Positions 9,553 through 19,139 of a stretch of 45,545 nucleotides of DNA are shown here, one piece after another. Source of the DNA: an uncultured Actinomycetes bacterium (GTDB lineage Bacteria; Actinomycetota; Acidimicrobiia; Acidimicrobiales; RAAP-2). The position numbers and the translations under genes are program-made. Every line of letters starts with the position of its first letter. Position 1 is the stretch's first letter. The notes beneath the pieces were generated by a model. The model had not been told where the DNA came from, did no database searches, and saw only the letters and a program-made list of their open reading frames with translations. The stretch spans positions 1 to 45,545 of the forward strand of contig CAINHL010000034.1 in NCBI GenBank assembly GCA_903848885.1, read 5' to 3'.

Positions 9553-11001
9553 CTACACGGGTCGGGCAGAGACCTCGTGCAAAACCACTACCACGGGGCC
9601 CGGCGCGATGTTTTCAGGAAGGTCGACTTCCACGGCATCCGCGGCCACACGCGTGACGAGGGGATTCCCCGAAATATCGGTGACGCGGGTGGTGGGGGTG
9701 TCGAGAATGTCGGTGAAGCGCACGGTGGTGGGGTGCCCGTTTACGATCGCGAAAACCGTGGGACCCTTAGCGGTGTAGCGCACTTGTAGGTCACCATTGA
9801 CCGTGGTGCCACAACGGACCCAGGGGCGGGTACCCACTATCGCCTCGGCATTGACCGCGAGCCACTCGCCGAGCCAGGTTAAACGTCGTCGTTGCGGTTC
9901 AGGGATGGCGGCGTCACGACCCGTAGGGCCAACATTGAGCAAAAGGTTTCCGCCCTTGGCCGTAATGTCGGTAATCAGCCAGAGTAATTCTTCGTGGGTG
10001 AGGAAATCTTCCTCACGCGAGTAGGCGTTATAGCCAAAACTCTCGTCCATTCCGCGACAACATTCCCACGGGGTGCGCTGTACGTCGGGGAAACTGACAT
10101 ACTCCGGAGTCCGCGCGTCGAAGTGCGGTGGGGGAGGCGGGATGAGGCCACCATTTTTGCGCATTTCTTTCAAGGTGTAGGAATTAATGAGCTTTTTCCC
10201 GACACGCGTCGTGGCGATCTTCATGAGGGGGCTCCAGGGCAACCAACGATCGTTAACTACCCCGTCGGGGACTTGCTCGTAGTAATAGGCGAAGAGCGGC
10301 CAGAGAGTTTTGGCGCTGTCGGGCCAGGCGATGTCGTTCCACAAGACGCTGGGTTGGTAGCGATCGATCAGTTCTCGAACTTGGGCATTGGCGTAGGCGG
10401 GGAAGTCGCCGCGCGGGATTGCGGCAATCACGTCAGCCATCGAACCGATGGGCCATTGGTTGAAAGTCCAGTCCATGCCAGCGCAGTAATACAGACCAAA
10501 TTTCATTCCGGCTTTGCGAACTGCGGTCGCCATCTCACCGACGATGTCCCGCGAGGAGTGCCAGCCGGGCCGATGTGGATTCTCCACCGCGGTGGGCCAC
10601 AGGCAGTAGCCGTCGGAGTGTTTTGCCACCATGACGACGTAACTCGCCCCGGTGGCTTTGAAAGTGGCCGCCCACTCGTCGGCGTCCCAGTGCTCGAAGC
10701 CCGCTTCGAAAGGTTCCCGAAACTCCTCATATGGCTGATCGCCAAAGTTCTCCTGGTGGAATTTCGCCACGGGGCTGTTGGGGAAACGCAGAGAATTTTG
10801 ATACCACTCGACGTAGGGTGAGAGGGAATACGAATCAGCAATGTCACCTTTTAAATGCGAGGCGAAATCAATGCCAATGGGCGCATACGCCGGCACGGCG
10901 GCCATGGTCCAGTGAATGAAAATCCCCAATTTGGCGTCCTGCCACCACGCAGGAACTCGGTGCTGGCGTAGAGAACGTAATTCTTTCGAGATTTTGGCCA
11001 T
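9553..11001 (-). CDS. Alpha-L-fucosidase (GH29 family)
   Basis: VPAWWQDAKLGIFIHWTMAAVPAYAP, AKHSDGYCLWPT, KFGLYYCAGMDWTF, QPSVLWNDIAWPD (nucleophile-like Asp), GNLLLNVGPTGRDAAIP. ATG at 11001 is preferred to the track start at 11073. No obvious signal peptide. Confidence 0.88.
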   Translation of the reverse strand: MAKISKELRSLRQHRVPAWWQDAKLGIFIHWTMAAVPAYAPIGIDFASHLKGDIADSYSLSPYVEWYQNSLRFPNSPVAKFHQENFGDQPYEEFREPFEAGFEHWDADEWAATFKATGASYVVMVAKHSDGYCLWPTAVENPHRPGWHSSRDIVGEMATAVRKAGMKFGLYYCAGMDWTFNQWPIGSMADVIAAIPRGDFPAYANAQVRELIDRYQPSVLWNDIAWPDSAKTLWPLFAYYYEQVPDGVVNDRWLPWSPLMKIATTRVGKKLINSYTLKEMRKNGGLIPPPPPHFDARTPEYVSFPDVQRTPWECCRGMDESFGYNAYSREEDFLTHEELLWLITDITAKGGNLLLNVGPTGRDAAIPEPQRRRLTWLGEWLAVNAEAIVGTRPWVRCGTTVNGDLQVRYTAKGPTVFAIVNGHPTTVRFTDILDTPTTRVTDISGNPLVTRVAADAVEVDLPENIAPGPVVVVLHEVSARPV

Positions 11002-11152
11002 ATTCCCCCCCAACTGTGACCGAGTGTAGACCCATAGTCCCGCCACCGCCGGTTTCACTGCACGCGCCGCCAAAGGCAGGAGCTCTCTGAAAATCAGGAG
11101 GCCACTGTGCTAAGAGTGATGAAGAGCACCACCGATATCTTCAGGGAGAGCG

Positions 11153-14100
11153 ATGAAGAAATACCTCCGCTTCGTGTCCACCAGCCTCGCCATGAGCACA
11201 CTCATTGTCGGACTCAGCTCGGTCGGCACCGCGAATGCGGTGCCCAAGGGCCCGAATGGTACGACCATCTTCATTTTACGTTCCGGCCTCACGAGCGAGC
11301 AGCGAACAGCAGTGATAAACGAAATTACCCAGCTGGGTGGCTGGGTATCGTCCACACCCACACCCGCCAACTTTGTCGTGGTGAAAGCTTCTGCCGCCAC
11401 CCTCTCCACCATCAGGGCAAATCCATTCGTAAGCCTGGCCGTTCCGAACGGGAAAATTCCCGGACCGAGTGTGCGCAATGTCCTGCCCAGTTTGTCCCAG
11501 CGCAGTCATGCGGCGGTGCGACACGACACCTTGGCCTCGTCACTGTGCGGTACGCAGGCATCGCCGGAATTAGATCCCGAGGCCGTGACCAACATCAACG
11601 CTCCCGCGGCCTGGGCGGCGGGGGCTACCGGCGCCGGCGTGACGGTGGCCTACATGGCGGAGGGGATCGACACGAGCATTGCCGACTTTCAGCGCAATCC
11701 TGCCTACGCGTCCAAAAATTCAGGAGCCCACTCGCCAGTATTTACCGACTACCAAGACTTCACGGGTGACGGAATTTTGTCACCGACGAGTGGCGGTGAG
11801 GCATTCCTCGACGCATCCTCCGTTGGTGCTCAGGGTAATACCGCCTACGACCTCTCCCAATATTCCAGTTTTGTTCCTTCGGGCTGCTACATCAAAGTCG
11901 TCGGCTCCGCACCGGGGGCAAACCTGATGGGACTGAAAGTGTTCGGCGCGAATAATTGGTCCACCAACACGGGCTTCCTTGAGGCCATTCAATACGCCGT
12001 CTCGCACGGGGTGAAGGTTCTCAACGAATCCTTTGGCTCCATGCCTCTGCCCGATCTCACCGCGAACTTGGTGAAGGCAGCCAACGATGCCGCCGTCGCT
12101 GCGGGTGTCACCGTGGTGGTCTCATCGGGTGATGCGGGTTCAAGTAACACCATGGGTTCACCCGCTAGCGATCCCAAGGTGATCGCGGTGGGTGCCAACA
12201 CCACCTATCGCTCCTACGCGCAAACGGGGTATGGGGGCATGACTTATCCGCTCGCCAGTGGTGGCTACGTAAAGAACAACATTTCGCCTCTGTCGTCGGG
12301 CGGAATTGCGCAGTCGGGCGACACGGTAAATCTCGTAGCTCCGGGGGACATGAACTGGGACCTGTGTTCGACCAGCGCTCTCTACGCCGACTGTGGTGGT
12401 GAGCCCCTCGGCCTCTCGGGTGGAACGTCGGAGTCCGCCCCTTTGGTTGCCGGTGCCGCCGCTGACGTGATTCAAGCCTTCCTGGCGGCCCATGGGTTTT
12501 ATCCCACGCCGGCCCAGGTGAAGTCCATTCTGATGAGCACCGCGACCAACCTCAATGCTCCCGTCACGCTGCAAGGGGCGGGTCTCTTGAATGTAGGGGC
12601 GGCGGTGGCCCTGGCGAAAACCTACACGGTGAAGAAGCCCAAGACTGCGGGTGGCATCGTAGTGAGCACTAACGCTCTGAACCTGAGTGGGACTCCCGGA
12701 TCCACCATCTCGAGCAGTGTCAGCGTGACCAATACCTCCAACGTGAGCACCAGCCTGCATCTCGCCAGCGTGCGAGAAGTGCGTGGCACTGTGCAAAGTG
12801 GAACCGTCACTTTGAACCCCGCGGTGGGCTCCACGCAACCCCAATTTCCTATCTGGAGTGGATACCAGGAGATATACCAAACGAAGGACTTTACGGTGAG
12901 CCCGGGAACGACGCGCGAGCAGTTTCAAGCAGACTTTGCCTACAGCGGGCAATCGTCCCTTTTGCACGTGGCCATCTTTGATCCCGCGGGGAATCTGGCG
13001 AGTTATTCCAACAGCCAAGGTCTCGCGGACTACGTAACCATGGATCTCAGTAATCCGACGACGGGTATCTGGAAAGCAGTCTTTTTCACGGTGTACAACG
13101 GTGATGGCCCCACGGATGTAGGCACCTCGGGTCTCGTGCAGTGGCAGGTGACGGCGTACAACAACGTGCCTACCGCCCTGGGGAAGGTAGTGGTCATAAA
13201 GGCCGGAGCCACGACCAAGATCTCGGCATCGCTGACTATGCCCATGGAACCGGGCGATACGTCCTTGGCCCTTGAGGTCATCTCCGCGAGCCGCACAGTC
13301 GTCATTCCCGTGACCGAGCGCACGGCGGTTCCCGTGGTGGCTGGATCCGGCAACTTCTACGGTGTTTTGACCGGTGGTAATGGGCGAGCGGGATCCCCTG
13401 CGCAAATGAATACGTATAAACTCACTATTCCCGCCGGTGCGAACAATCTTGAAGTCGACCTCGAACTAAGTAATTTCGAGGCGGTGGCGAGCAACGGACT
13501 TCCCGGAACCCAAATCGTGGCGATGCTGCTGTCACCCACAGGTCAAGAGTTGTCCTACGACACCAACGTAACTTTTGACAACTATCTCAATGCGTATACG
13601 CTGACCCCCTACGTGAGCCTCTACGCTGCCACCCCCGTGGGAGGTACCTATACCTACGTCGTGGAGTTTGCTAATCCCGTGGTGGCGAGCGCGATCGACT
13701 CCGCCTTTCATGGCCAAGTTCTGCTGAACGGCGTTTCGGTGAGTGGATCGCTCCCCAACAGTGCGAGCACGGTGGTGAGCGCGAGTGCGGGTGGGACATA
13801 CAACATCAACGTAACGAATCGCGGAATGACGCCCTTGAACATCACCGCCGACCCACGGACGGTGGCGAGCGTTAGCTATCAGATCTCCGATCTCTTTGGT
13901 AGTCCGGCCACGCAAACGTTCAATAACTCATGGAGCTACTACGTTCCACCAGGTACCAGTGCCATCACCACCTCGCAGACCTCGACGGCGCCGGCCTCCT
14001 TTGACATGTCGAGTTATATGGGAGACCCGGATCTCAGTCCGCGGGTAGCGATGGCAGGCGTGACGGCAAGCTTCGCGCCGCAGGCGTCGTCACTTAGCTA

Positions 14101-14509
14101 TCGCCCCGTGGGGGGAGTGGCTAGTGGAATGTGGGGCGTTACTCCCGCACCGTTGGGTCCCTTCACTTCGTCAACGAGCAGTGCGACAGCAACCGTCACC
14201 TCGCGTACCTCTATCACCACGCAGGACTTCGACGCCAACGTCACGACGAGTACGGGTGACATGGTGGCGTACTACACGGGTACGGGAGATCCGACCGCGG
14301 GCATTATTGTCCCGCCCGGCGGTACCGTGACCATTACCGTGACCATCAATCCGATTGACCAGGTGGGAACGGTGGAGATGGGTCAGTTGTACATCGACGC
14401 GGCAAACTTGGGGAATAATTTCAACATGCAGGGAAATTACCTGGTCTACGTGGCACCGTTTATTGCTCCGGTCAGCATCCTGCCCTACGCCTACACCGTC
14501 GGCCGCTAG
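11153..14509 (+). CDS. Secreted subtilase-like serine peptidase (divergent S8 / sedolisin-like active site)
   Basis: 1118 aa; Sec signal MKKYLRFVSTSLAMSTLIVGLSSVGTANA; SAPGANLMGLKVFG, VSSGDAGSSNTMGSPASDPKVIAVGA, SGGTSESAPLVAGAA; long beta-rich C-terminal region. Confidence 0.85.
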   Translation: MKKYLRFVSTSLAMSTLIVGLSSVGTANAVPKGPNGTTIFILRSGLTSEQRTAVINEITQLGGWVSSTPTPANFVVVKASAATLSTIRANPFVSLAVPNGKIPGPSVRNVLPSLSQRSHAAVRHDTLASSLCGTQASPELDPEAVTNINAPAAWAAGATGAGVTVAYMAEGIDTSIADFQRNPAYASKNSGAHSPVFTDYQDFTGDGILSPTSGGEAFLDASSVGAQGNTAYDLSQYSSFVPSGCYIKVVGSAPGANLMGLKVFGANNWSTNTGFLEAIQYAVSHGVKVLNESFGSMPLPDLTANLVKAANDAAVAAGVTVVVSSGDAGSSNTMGSPASDPKVIAVGANTTYRSYAQTGYGGMTYPLASGGYVKNNISPLSSGGIAQSGDTVNLVAPGDMNWDLCSTSALYADCGGEPLGLSGGTSESAPLVAGAAADVIQAFLAAHGFYPTPAQVKSILMSTATNLNAPVTLQGAGLLNVGAAVALAKTYTVKKPKTAGGIVVSTNALNLSGTPGSTISSSVSVTNTSNVSTSLHLASVREVRGTVQSGTVTLNPAVGSTQPQFPIWSGYQEIYQTKDFTVSPGTTREQFQADFAYSGQSSLLHVAIFDPAGNLASYSNSQGLADYVTMDLSNPTTGIWKAVFFTVYNGDGPTDVGTSGLVQWQVTAYNNVPTALGKVVVIKAGATTKISASLTMPMEPGDTSLALEVISASRTVVIPVTERTAVPVVAGSGNFYGVLTGGNGRAGSPAQMNTYKLTIPAGANNLEVDLELSNFEAVASNGLPGTQIVAMLLSPTGQELSYDTNVTFDNYLNAYTLTPYVSLYAATPVGGTYTYVVEFANPVVASAIDSAFHGQVLLNGVSVSGSLPNSASTVVSASAGGTYNINVTNRGMTPLNITADPRTVASVSYQISDLFGSPATQTFNNSWSYYVPPGTSAITTSQTSTAPASFDMSSYMGDPDLSPRVAMAGVTASFAPQASSLSYRPVGGVASGMWGVTPAPLGPFTSSTSSATATVTSRTSITTQDFDANVTTSTGDMVAYYTGTGDPTAGIIVPPGGTVTITVTINPIDQVGTVEMGQLYIDAANLGNNFNMQGNYLVYVAPFIAPVSILPYAYTVGR

Positions 14510-15171: not shown

Positions 15172-16383
15172 ATGAAAATCAATATTCGAGGTTCGTTCGC
15201 AGTGGTTGTCACCACCGCCGGGCTCTTTGCCTCGTTGTCAATCCCTGCGGGCGCAGCGACGGTCAAGCTTGACCCGATCTTGGCTAGCGACACTCAGCTG
15301 AGCACGACCGCAACGGTCACGTCTGCTGGGTCAACCTTTGACACGCCATTATTTAGCGCTGCCTACCCGATTTACTCTTCTCGCACTCACAACGCCACCG
15401 TTGGAGCGTACGGCGCGGGTGGTTCGGGTGCTGGTCAGACGGCCATCATGTCCAACACGGCTGACTTTGCCGCTTCGGACGTTCCGCTAACTCAGGCGAA
15501 CATTGATGCTGCCACCACCATTTCATCTCGCGGAACTCTCGCCGACTACGTGCAGGTGCCAGTTGCTCTCGGTGGTGTGGCTATTGCTTTCCACAACACT
15601 GCGATCACTACTAACAAGCTCTACAAGGCCAATGGCTTCATCGTGACCTCGGCAATTCTGGCCAAGATCTACACCGGTGCTATTACCAAGTGGAACGACA
15701 GTGCTATCTGTGCGGCCAACGTGAAGTGGGTTGTCAAGAAGGCCTGTGCTCTGCCCAACGCCAACATCACCGTTGTCGGACGCTCAGACTCCTCAGGTAC
15801 GACCTACATCTTCCGTGACTACCTGCACACTGCGCAGCCCTCTATTTTGACCGCCGCTCCTTCGAAGTCAACCTTCGTGACATCCACCAACGGCTTCGTT
15901 GGCGGAAGCGGTAACCAGGGCGTTGCCACTGACTTGGAGAACACCAACAACTCCTTGGGCTACGTGGAATACTCCTACGTGCTGCTGAACAAGTCTCTCG
16001 ATGCCGCACTCGTGGTCAACGCTGCGAACAAGGCTGTAGCGATTAGTCAGGCCGGCATTGCCGCTGCTGCAGCTACCAAGCCTTCGGTTGATTCCACTAA
16101 CTTCTCCATCGTGAACGCCAGTGGCGCTACTTCGTACCCGATCTCTGGTTACAGTTGGGTCATGCTCCGCAAGGCCAGTGCAGCCAGCTCCTTGGCTCAG
16201 GCCCAGTTGACGGTCAAGCTGGTTGACTGGTTGGCCCACAGCGCTCCGGCGAAGTCGGGACTTACCTTCGGACAAGATGTTGCCGCTCAACAGGGCTACG
16301 TTGCCTTGCCGACGGCAGCGCAGAACGTCACCCGTAACGCCTTGAAGACGATCACCTATAACGGTGCTCAGGTCCTCAAGTAA
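15172..16383 (+). CDS. pstS: Phosphate ABC transporter substrate-binding protein
   Basis: Sec signal peptide; AGSTFDTPLFSAAYPIY, GSGAGQTAIMSNTADFAASDVPLT, VVGRSDSSGTTYIF; RBS ggagg upstream; followed by pstCAB. Confidence 0.95.
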   Translation: MKINIRGSFAVVVTTAGLFASLSIPAGAATVKLDPILASDTQLSTTATVTSAGSTFDTPLFSAAYPIYSSRTHNATVGAYGAGGSGAGQTAIMSNTADFAASDVPLTQANIDAATTISSRGTLADYVQVPVALGGVAIAFHNTAITTNKLYKANGFIVTSAILAKIYTGAITKWNDSAICAANVKWVVKKACALPNANITVVGRSDSSGTTYIFRDYLHTAQPSILTAAPSKSTFVTSTNGFVGGSGNQGVATDLENTNNSLGYVEYSYVLLNKSLDAALVVNAANKAVAISQAGIAAAAATKPSVDSTNFSIVNASGATSYPISGYSWVMLRKASAASSLAQAQLTVKLVDWLAHSAPAKSGLTFGQDVAAQQGYVALPTAAQNVTRNALKTITYNGAQVLK

Positions 16384-16411
16384 GTAGTCGAAAGAATCCT
16401 GGATACAGCAG

Positions 16412-17371
16412 ATGATTTCATCAAAATCCGTATCCGGACTTAACGGTCACGACTTCACCCGGGGCGTAATGCCCCGGGTGAAGTCTGGTCGTTTCTATAG
16501 CTATGTCTTGCGCGGCTCGGCAGTGCTCTTTTCTGCCGTTCTCGTTCTTTTTGTGTGGAGCATTATTCGACAATCGTGGCCGGCGTGGTCACACTCGGGA
16601 CTCTCGATTATCACTGGGACCAACTGGGCTCCGGCAGATAGTCAATTCGGGGCGCTTCCGCTGATACTCGCTACCTTGATCACCGCTGGCGTGGCGCTTT
16701 TGTTTGCCGTTCCTATTGGTATCGGTACCGCTCTCACTTTGAACTACATTGTTCCCCCGCGAATCGCGAGCCCTCTGACAGTGCTCGTCGAACTTCTTGC
16801 AGCTGTTCCCTCGGTGGTCTACGGACTCTGGGGCCTCAACGTTTTGGTGCCGTGGATGTCCACGACCATTCAGCCCTGGCTCGCCGGGTTAACGAGTGGT
16901 GGCTGGCCCTTTAGCGGAAACGCCATTGGTCTCGGTCTGGTACTCGCGAGCACAGTACTTTCGATCATGGTTCTCCCGACCATTGTGGCCATTTCACGTG
17001 ACGTGATTGCCGCGGTTCCCCGCGATCTCATTGAAGGAGCACTCTCCTTGGGAGCAACACGGAGTCAGGTCTTGTTAAAAGTAGTAGTCCCCAGTGCAAA
17101 AATTGGCCTGCTCGGCGCAGTATCGCTCGGTGCCGGTCGTGCTTTGGGTGAAACTGTTGCCGTGGCGATGGTTATCGGATCCAGCCCCTCCATGCCACAC
17201 TCGCTGTTCTCCTTGGGTTCCACGCTCGCGTCGACCATTGCCACGCAATTTATTGATTCCTCGCCCCAGCAGCTCGCCGCCCTCGGCGCGCTGGCCATGA
17301 TTTTGATGTTTTTGACAGCGTCCGTGAACGCTATCGCTCGTGCACTAGTGCAGCGCGGCGTGAAGGGTTAA
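16412..17371 (+). CDS. pstC: Phosphate ABC transporter permease PstC
   Basis: Polytopic protein with EGALSLGATRSQVLLKVVVPSAKIGLLGAVSLGAGRALGETVAVAMVIG; pst operon context. Confidence 0.95.
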   Translation: MISSKSVSGLNGHDFTRGVMPRVKSGRFYSYVLRGSAVLFSAVLVLFVWSIIRQSWPAWSHSGLSIITGTNWAPADSQFGALPLILATLITAGVALLFAVPIGIGTALTLNYIVPPRIASPLTVLVELLAAVPSVVYGLWGLNVLVPWMSTTIQPWLAGLTSGGWPFSGNAIGLGLVLASTVLSIMVLPTIVAISRDVIAAVPRDLIEGALSLGATRSQVLLKVVVPSAKIGLLGAVSLGAGRALGETVAVAMVIGSSPSMPHSLFSLGSTLASTIATQFIDSSPQQLAALGALAMILMFLTASVNAIARALVQRGVKG

Positions 17372-17373
17372 CG

Positions 17374-18300
17374 ATGACCGACCTCCTCGCCAAGTTGCCA
17401 CCGGACCCTCTTCTCGAGCGTCGCCGAGTCGTGCAACTTATGTCGCAGAAAACTCAGCGAGCTCGTTCTCTTCGTTCGGGCTTGTTTCTCTCGCTGCTCG
17501 TCTCTGCATTGATGGTTGCCATCATTCCTTTGTTTTTTGTGTGCGCGGCTCTGGTGCAGCGGGGATTCAAAGTGCTGTCGTGGGGATTTCTGACCCAAGT
17601 GCCACAGCAGCCGACTTTGATGCAGCAAGACACCATTGGCGGGGTCGGTAATGCCATTATCGGCTCGCTGGTCGTTGACGGTGTGGCTGCGCTAGTGGCC
17701 GTGCCCCTGGGCATCATTCTCGGCCTGTACCTGTCGGAAACGCAAAGTCGCCCCGCCACTGCGCTGCGCTCGATTACGGAAATAATGACGGGCTTGCCGT
17801 CAATTCTCTTGGGCGTTTTCGCCTATGTGTACCTTGTGCTTAACATGCACGCTTTCACCGGCTTCGCTGGTGCGATGGCTTTGGCGCTACTGATGACTCC
17901 AGTTATTACCAAGGCAGCGGAGACGGCACTTCGAAACGTCCCGCGGACTTTGACAGAAGCTGGCCTCGCGCTGGGTGCTCGCCAGTCCAAGGTGTCGCTG
18001 AAAGTAGTTCTACCTGTGGCCGCGCCGGGAATTATCACTGGCGTCCTGCTCGCCCTGGCTCGCGCCATCGGCGAAACCGCTCCACTTCTGTTGGTGATGG
18101 GCGCCTCCATTCAATACGAATGGAATCCTCTCCACCCCATGTCGGCACTGCCCTTGATGACCTTTAATTACTCGTCAGCCGCATACGACAGCCAGCACGC
18201 CGCCGCGTGGGGTGTTGCCATTGTCTTAGTAGCAATTGTTCTGATTTTGAATGTTATGTCGCGACTAGTCGCGGCGTTTATGCGCAGGGAGCGTCACTAA
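17374..18300 (+). CDS. pstA: Phosphate ABC transporter permease PstA
   Basis: [47 protein letters not shown]; pst operon context. Confidence 0.95.
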
Positions 18301-19139
18301 TGGAGGGAATGAAAATGGAAGATCGAGGCTTGGCAGCCGCGGGTGTGGCGAATCAAGCCGAAACCGGTCCTGCCGTGATGCGCCTGAAGGACGTGTCCGT
18401 GTCCTTCAATGACCGTATGGCCGTGCGTGGCGTCACTTTCGACGTCGTTGCCAACAAGGTGACCTCAATGATTGGGCCATCAGGTTCTGGAAAGACCACT
18501 CTTCTTCGGTCGCTGAATCGTCTGCACGACTTGACCAAGGGCGCCAAAGTCACGGGAGATATTCGATTGGGTGACCTTGACGTCTACGGAGGCGATTTGG
18601 CTACGACCTTGTTGCGTAGTCGCATTGGAATGGTGTTTCAGCGACCCAATCCTTTCCCCACCATGTCGATTTATGACAATGTGGTCTCGGGTTTACGCTT
18701 TAACGGAATTAAGAAGAAGGCGATTCTCGAAGAGGCGGCCGAGTCGGCTCTCATTGCTGCCGCATTATGGGACAGCGTGAAAGATCGGATGAAAGCTCAC
18801 GCCTCAACCTTGTCGGGGGGAGAGCAACAACGTCTGTGCATCGCTCGAGCGTTGGCGGTTGAGCCAGAAGTTCTGCTCATGGACGAACCGACGTCATCAC
18901 TTGACCCAGTGTCTACTCAGCGCATTGAAGAGTTGATGGTGGAATTGAAGAATCGTGTCACCATCGTCATCGTGACCCACAACATGCAACAGGCCGCTCG
19001 CATCTCGGACAATTGCGCGTTTTTATTGATGGCGGAAGACCGATCGGGAGAATTAATCGAATTTGCTTCGACGGAGAAGATTTTCCATAATCCGTCAGAT
19101 GAACGGACCCTCGATTACATCCAGGGTCGATTCGGCTGA
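18300..19139 (+). CDS. pstB: Phosphate ABC transporter ATP-binding protein PstB
   Basis: Walker [10 protein letters not shown], signature LSGGEQQRL, Walker [17 protein letters not shown] at 18300 overlaps the pstA stop (TAATG); the track start at 18207 is too long. Confidence 0.95.

Follow-up and report, generated by a model that had tools for sequence, protein, structure and literature searches.

Can a protein with the architecture of an S8 subtilase that lacks the Asp and His of the S8 triad still act as a protease, and by what chemistry? The question is raised by an open reading frame (ORF) of 1118 amino acids at positions 11153–14509 of the window, the whole 45,545-nucleotide stretch of DNA analysed here; the ORF and all features described within it lie on the plus strand. 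PF00082 is the only Pfam family to match the ORF above its cut-off (E 8.1e-28), and the whole frame was read as a predicted secreted subtilase-fold protein. By direct reading, an RBS-like AGGGAG (11143–11148, plus strand) lies 5' of the ATG, and the N-terminus is signal-peptide-like as judged by eye, without a predictor (residues 1–29, MKKYLRFVSTSLAMSTLIVGLSSVGTANA; 11153–11239). Approximately residues 35–105 (11255–11467) would form an I9-type propeptide. The catalytic domain covers residues 128–493 (11534–12631), as delimited by PF00082, which was matched in 14 of 14 members of the family checked, and by alignments and AlphaFold2 models. The remaining C-terminal region (residues 494–1118; 12632–14506) is probably beta-rich or Ig-like on the basis of weak, sub-threshold fn3/Ig-like Pfam matches. 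One relative from the same genus (G009) aligns with residues 66–1117, the C-terminal region included.

The original prediction held that this protein lacks the S8 Asp motif and the HGT His motif and carries a sedolisin-like constellation instead. Reading the translation bore this out: both S8 motifs are absent from the ORF, the motifs VTVAYMAEGIDTS, GGEAFLDASSVGAQGNTAYD, SSGDAG and SGGTSESAP are all present as described, and the numbering of E216, D220, D327 and S426 from the ATG at 11153 is exact. Compared with S8 subtilases such as subtilisin BPN', pro-subtilisin E and Tk-subtilisin (PF00082), the protein and its relatives do not have the Asp-His-Ser triad and oxyanion Asn, instead having Ala for Asp32, Glu for His64 and Asp for Asn155, with only the Ser kept; a new Asp occupies the position of Val68, and the loop past the His helix is longer. 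In S53 enzymes, the base and acid lie on one helix as Glu-x3-Asp and the oxyanion Asn is replaced by Asp (PMC11593635; PMC6278154). Judged from sequence, all 17 aligned members have this Ser-Glu-Asp arrangement with Glu-x3-Asp and an oxyanion Asp, and by the structural definition of PMC11593635 the predicted active site qualifies as S53-type. We consider it likely that the protein combines S8 architecture with such a site and acts as a secreted endopeptidase that degrades extracellular protein, probably preferring acid pH.

Evidence for this reading comes from conservation. The family alignment contains 17 rows with pairwise identities of 38–93% (median 50%), and every one of the 17 keeps E216, D220, D327 and S426, a check that the original prediction had proposed for homologues; the full S53 catalytic constellation in an S8-type protein thus extends to relatives from several actinobacterial families. 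The position of the lost S8 Asp32 (A169-E170 in the window protein; 11657–11662) is Ala in 15 of the 17 rows, whereas the other two have Glu and Pro, respectively; the position just after it, 170, is Asp or Glu in every row. Among the 366 positions of the catalytic domain, seven acidic residues are invariant (D173, D202, E216, D220, D233, E292 and D327), and three of these coincide exactly with S53 catalytic positions. The probability that three preset positions would all fall among seven invariant acids of 366 by random placement is p ~4e-6, which, together with the invariance itself, argues that the E216/D220/D327 pattern is more than chance.

These data also bear on whether the protein is an enzyme at all. 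The loss of both canonical S8 residues, and a Pfam match weaker than the top-scoring S8 proteins in the class achieve, would suit a pseudoprotease, that is, an S8 protein without its Asp and His that now has a binding or scaffold role. We regard this as unlikely because a dead enzyme would let its catalytic residues and propeptide drift, whereas S426, D327, E216 and D220 have stayed invariant across sequences that share a median identity of only 50%, and the propeptide is retained. Its retention fits an active enzyme that undergoes maturation.

To place the conserved residues in three dimensions, we relied on two AlphaFold2 models of moderate confidence, one of the window protein (mean pLDDT 70.7, pTM 0.79; the oxyanion loop is poorly confident) and one headed by a Kutzneria relative (mean pLDDT 66.0). 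In the first, E216 and D220 (residues 182 and 186 in model numbering) lie on a helix of residues 181–191, of which E216 is the second residue; the second model contains the same E216/D220 helix. As modelled, this helix opens at the E216 position, as does the His64 helix of subtilisin. Profile alignment with hhalign matches the family segment DASSIAAQG to VAGIIAA in the His helix of S8, which puts D220 at the Val68 position and, because it lies four residues before D220 on the same helix, E216 at the His64 position. The alignment leaves a two-residue gap between E216 and D220, with which the continuous helix of the models disagrees. The Ser helix spans model residues 391–413, with S426 (392) as its second residue. 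The original prediction supposed that E216 and D220 lie near S426; in the models the first two appear to lie on the counterpart of the subtilisin His64 helix and the third begins the Ser helix, and we infer that E216, D220 and S426 contact one another.

The models also speak to the idea that a distant His or Asp restores an ordinary S8 triad, an outcome that would contradict the original prediction and for which we searched without finding a suitable residue. The invariance of H447, the only invariant His of the catalytic domain, makes it the natural candidate, but this residue lies 21 positions past S426 and, in the model, ends the Ser helix that S426 begins (residue 413), ~30 Å from S426 as estimated at 1.5 Å per residue along the shared helix. 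Across the 17 rows, no His of the catalytic domain N-terminal to S426 is invariant. We rejected this explanation, which we regard as extremely unlikely.

Under the S53-type reading, Ser426 (12428–12430, in GGTSESAP) would act as the nucleophile, Glu216 (11798–11800) at the His64 position as the general base and Asp220 (11810–11812), four residues and one helix turn further on, as the acid in place of Asp32. Asp327 (12131–12133, in SSGDAG) would take the place of Asn155 in the oxyanion hole; its alignment column is Asn in S8 and Asp in S53. The predicted product is a secreted endopeptidase with an I9-type propeptide, a subtilisin-like core and a long beta-rich C-terminal part. An acid pH optimum is probable, and catalysis and a nutritional role are both predicted.

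A variant of this mechanism would retain an active carboxyl-type serine protease and change its proton relay, with Asp/Glu170, Glu292, Asp202 or Asp233 replacing or joining Asp220. The acidic character of position 170 and the invariance of E292, D202 and D233 leave room for such a relay. E292 (12026–12028, in NESFG) stands immediately before the Ser that is conserved in the substrate-binding SxG strand (family motif NES[FLA]G), at a position that is non-acidic in the aligned S8 and S53 rows. There is also a parallel in kumamolisin, which uses an additional Glu32. However, E216 and D220 are spaced precisely as in S53 and lie on the expected helix, so that a further residue is unneeded, and we consider a different relay quite improbable.

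Given an S53-type active site, the protein might simply be an ordinary S53 sedolisin that Pfam labels as S8. It has the complete set of four S53 catalytic residues, and its Ser motif, GGTSxSAP, is S53-like; with sedolisin, kumamolisin and TPP1, the family has in common the Glu-x3-Asp helix, the SGDxG oxyanion Asp and the GGTS serine. Nearly everything outside the active site points the other way. PF05922 (I9) passed its threshold in five of the six relatives of full length, and although the Pfam search did not report it for the window protein's own sequence, the AlphaFold2 model of that protein matches pro-subtilisin E end to end in Foldseek. Sequence and fold comparisons with the PDB both give subtilisins as the best matches, with pro-subtilisin E first, and the top Foldseek hits listed are subtilases throughout. 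The S53 propeptide domain PF09286 (Pro-kuma_activ) is absent from the window protein and six relatives by Pfam search. The C-terminal calcium-site motifs of S53, DIT.G.N and G[WY]D..TGLG.P, occur in 0/17 family members, whereas each of 18 true S53 proteins carries one or more of them. In hhalign, the family profile scores 203 against S8 of the class, 218 against the nearest S8 group and 105, about half, against S53. In the trees, the family and S53 form separate clades. The family has in common with S8 subtilases the core fold, the I9-type propeptide, the GTSxSAP nucleophile and a C-terminal LxxTAxDLGxPxxxxGxGL segment, and, in contrast to sedolisins, its C-terminal end and loops are S8-like. 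A point against the S53-type reading of the active site itself is that the two E-x3-D motifs do not superpose when the family and S53 profiles are aligned, because the loops after the helix differ in length. On the basis of the propeptide, the calcium motifs and the profile scores, we rejected a mislabelled sedolisin, a very unlikely explanation.

The protein is therefore not a member of S53, as it is S8-like in its PF00082 match, I9 propeptide, PDB matches, profile score and C-terminal end and has neither the S53 propeptide nor the S53 calcium site. Rather, it belongs to a small actinobacterial subfamily that combines S8 architecture with an S53-type active site, and that is apparently uncharacterised so far: our literature search found no paper describing the family. 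The CDD entry cd05562 ('Peptidases_S53_like'), which by its name presumably comprises subtilase-like domains with S53 features, may already cover it; the same search found no mention of this identifier. Among canonical S8 proteins, the group that profile scores put nearest to the family consists of subtilases with WSG or WSATR repeats. These S8 subtilases, from other genomes of the phylum, end in long tandem repeats of the type (WSGxTWSG)n, (WSGAG)n or (WSATR)n (L100–L104, L005 and L006).

What is new here is the combination of a known fold and a known chemistry that are treated as separate in the structural literature we found, in which S8 and S53 share a fold and yet are discrete families without forms between them. 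A protein with an S8 propeptide and core and an S53 active site either links S8 and S53 or indicates that the switch occurred twice. To distinguish these, we masked the catalytic columns and built a tree from six blocks aligned without gaps, as a full-length alignment misaligned the E-x3-D motifs. In this tree, the family, S53 and S8 each fall on one side of a branch. The bipartition of S8 from the family plus S53 has a support of 43/86, and trees constrained to join the family to one or the other of two S8 groups could not be rejected (p-AU 0.44 and 0.58). The trees thus allow both shared descent with S53 and convergence within S8. The original prediction had suggested that the protein might be intermediate to S53-type chemistry; this status was not established, as the trees agree with descent from a shared S53-like ancestor as well as with a separate origin within S8. 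That the site of Ser-Glu-Asp and oxyanion Asp arose a second time, inside S8 and independently of sedolisins, is a possibility that we hold only tentatively. If true, it would represent a natural experiment in which four substitutions, two of which share a helix, turned a subtilisin into an acid protease. With this family, mutagenesis can test how a His-based triad gives way to a carboxyl-based one, and the family would be a natural starting point for acid-active subtilisins.

To assess how widespread the subfamily is, we scanned GTDB genomes with patterns specific to the window's protein sequence and found at least 13 family loci, all of them actinobacterial among the matches listed; with patterns so specific, the scan may have passed over members outside Actinomycetota. 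The hosts were Kutzneria (five loci in four genomes), Actinomadura, Amycolatopsis, Rugosimonospora, Catenulispora and metagenome-assembled genomes. Genome searches added three members in the window's genus (G009, G025 and G553), one in its family (G226) and another in a distant genome of the same phylum (G152), and one member is encoded on the megaplasmid pSCAT of Streptantibioticus cattleyicolor. In a sample of 397 genomes of the phylum, matches were found in the window's own genome and in 2 of the 396 others. The family is thus real but sparse, and the earlier suggestion that the clade may be broad holds for the several actinobacterial families represented but not for the frequency with which it occurs.

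The genus to which the window belongs is rich in true S53 proteins, which were found in 35 of its 37 genomes compared with 5 of 24 genomes elsewhere in the order. Strong PF00082 matches in 61 genomes of the genus came only from the present family, in four genomes, and one other protein, and most of the weaker matches that we read bear S53 motifs; in the class, 40 of 60 genomes had strong S8 matches. In archaea, the presence of S53 accompanies acidophily and that of S8 runs against it (PMC6411800). Given the abundance of S53, the near lack of other S8 proteins and this archaeal trend, it is reasonable to suppose that the genus occupies an acid niche. The window protein is the one S8-type enzyme found in its own genome, and that this enzyme would be of the carboxyl type fits such a niche. 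Isoelectric points did not clearly separate the family from S8 proteins. Several of the hosts (Kutzneria, Actinomadura) are not known as acidophiles.

Several further observations concern the genomes and the locus. The window's genome also encodes a true S53 protein on contig 88 (10331–10705), with PF09286, EPNLD, ASGDSG and GGTSIGSP. The sole strong S8 match outside the family among the 61 genus genomes (L105; G545:C36:3526-4569) is a protein of 843 amino acids without a signal peptide by eye, perhaps an intracellular or defence-type subtilase. No conserved gene neighbourhood was seen by eye in eight relatives. In the window, an alpha-L-fucosidase gene lies upstream of the protease ORF (9553–11073, minus strand), and genes for a phosphate-type ABC transporter, comprising a PstS-like PBP_like_2 protein, two BPD_transp_1 permeases and an ABC ATPase, lie directly downstream (15172–19139).
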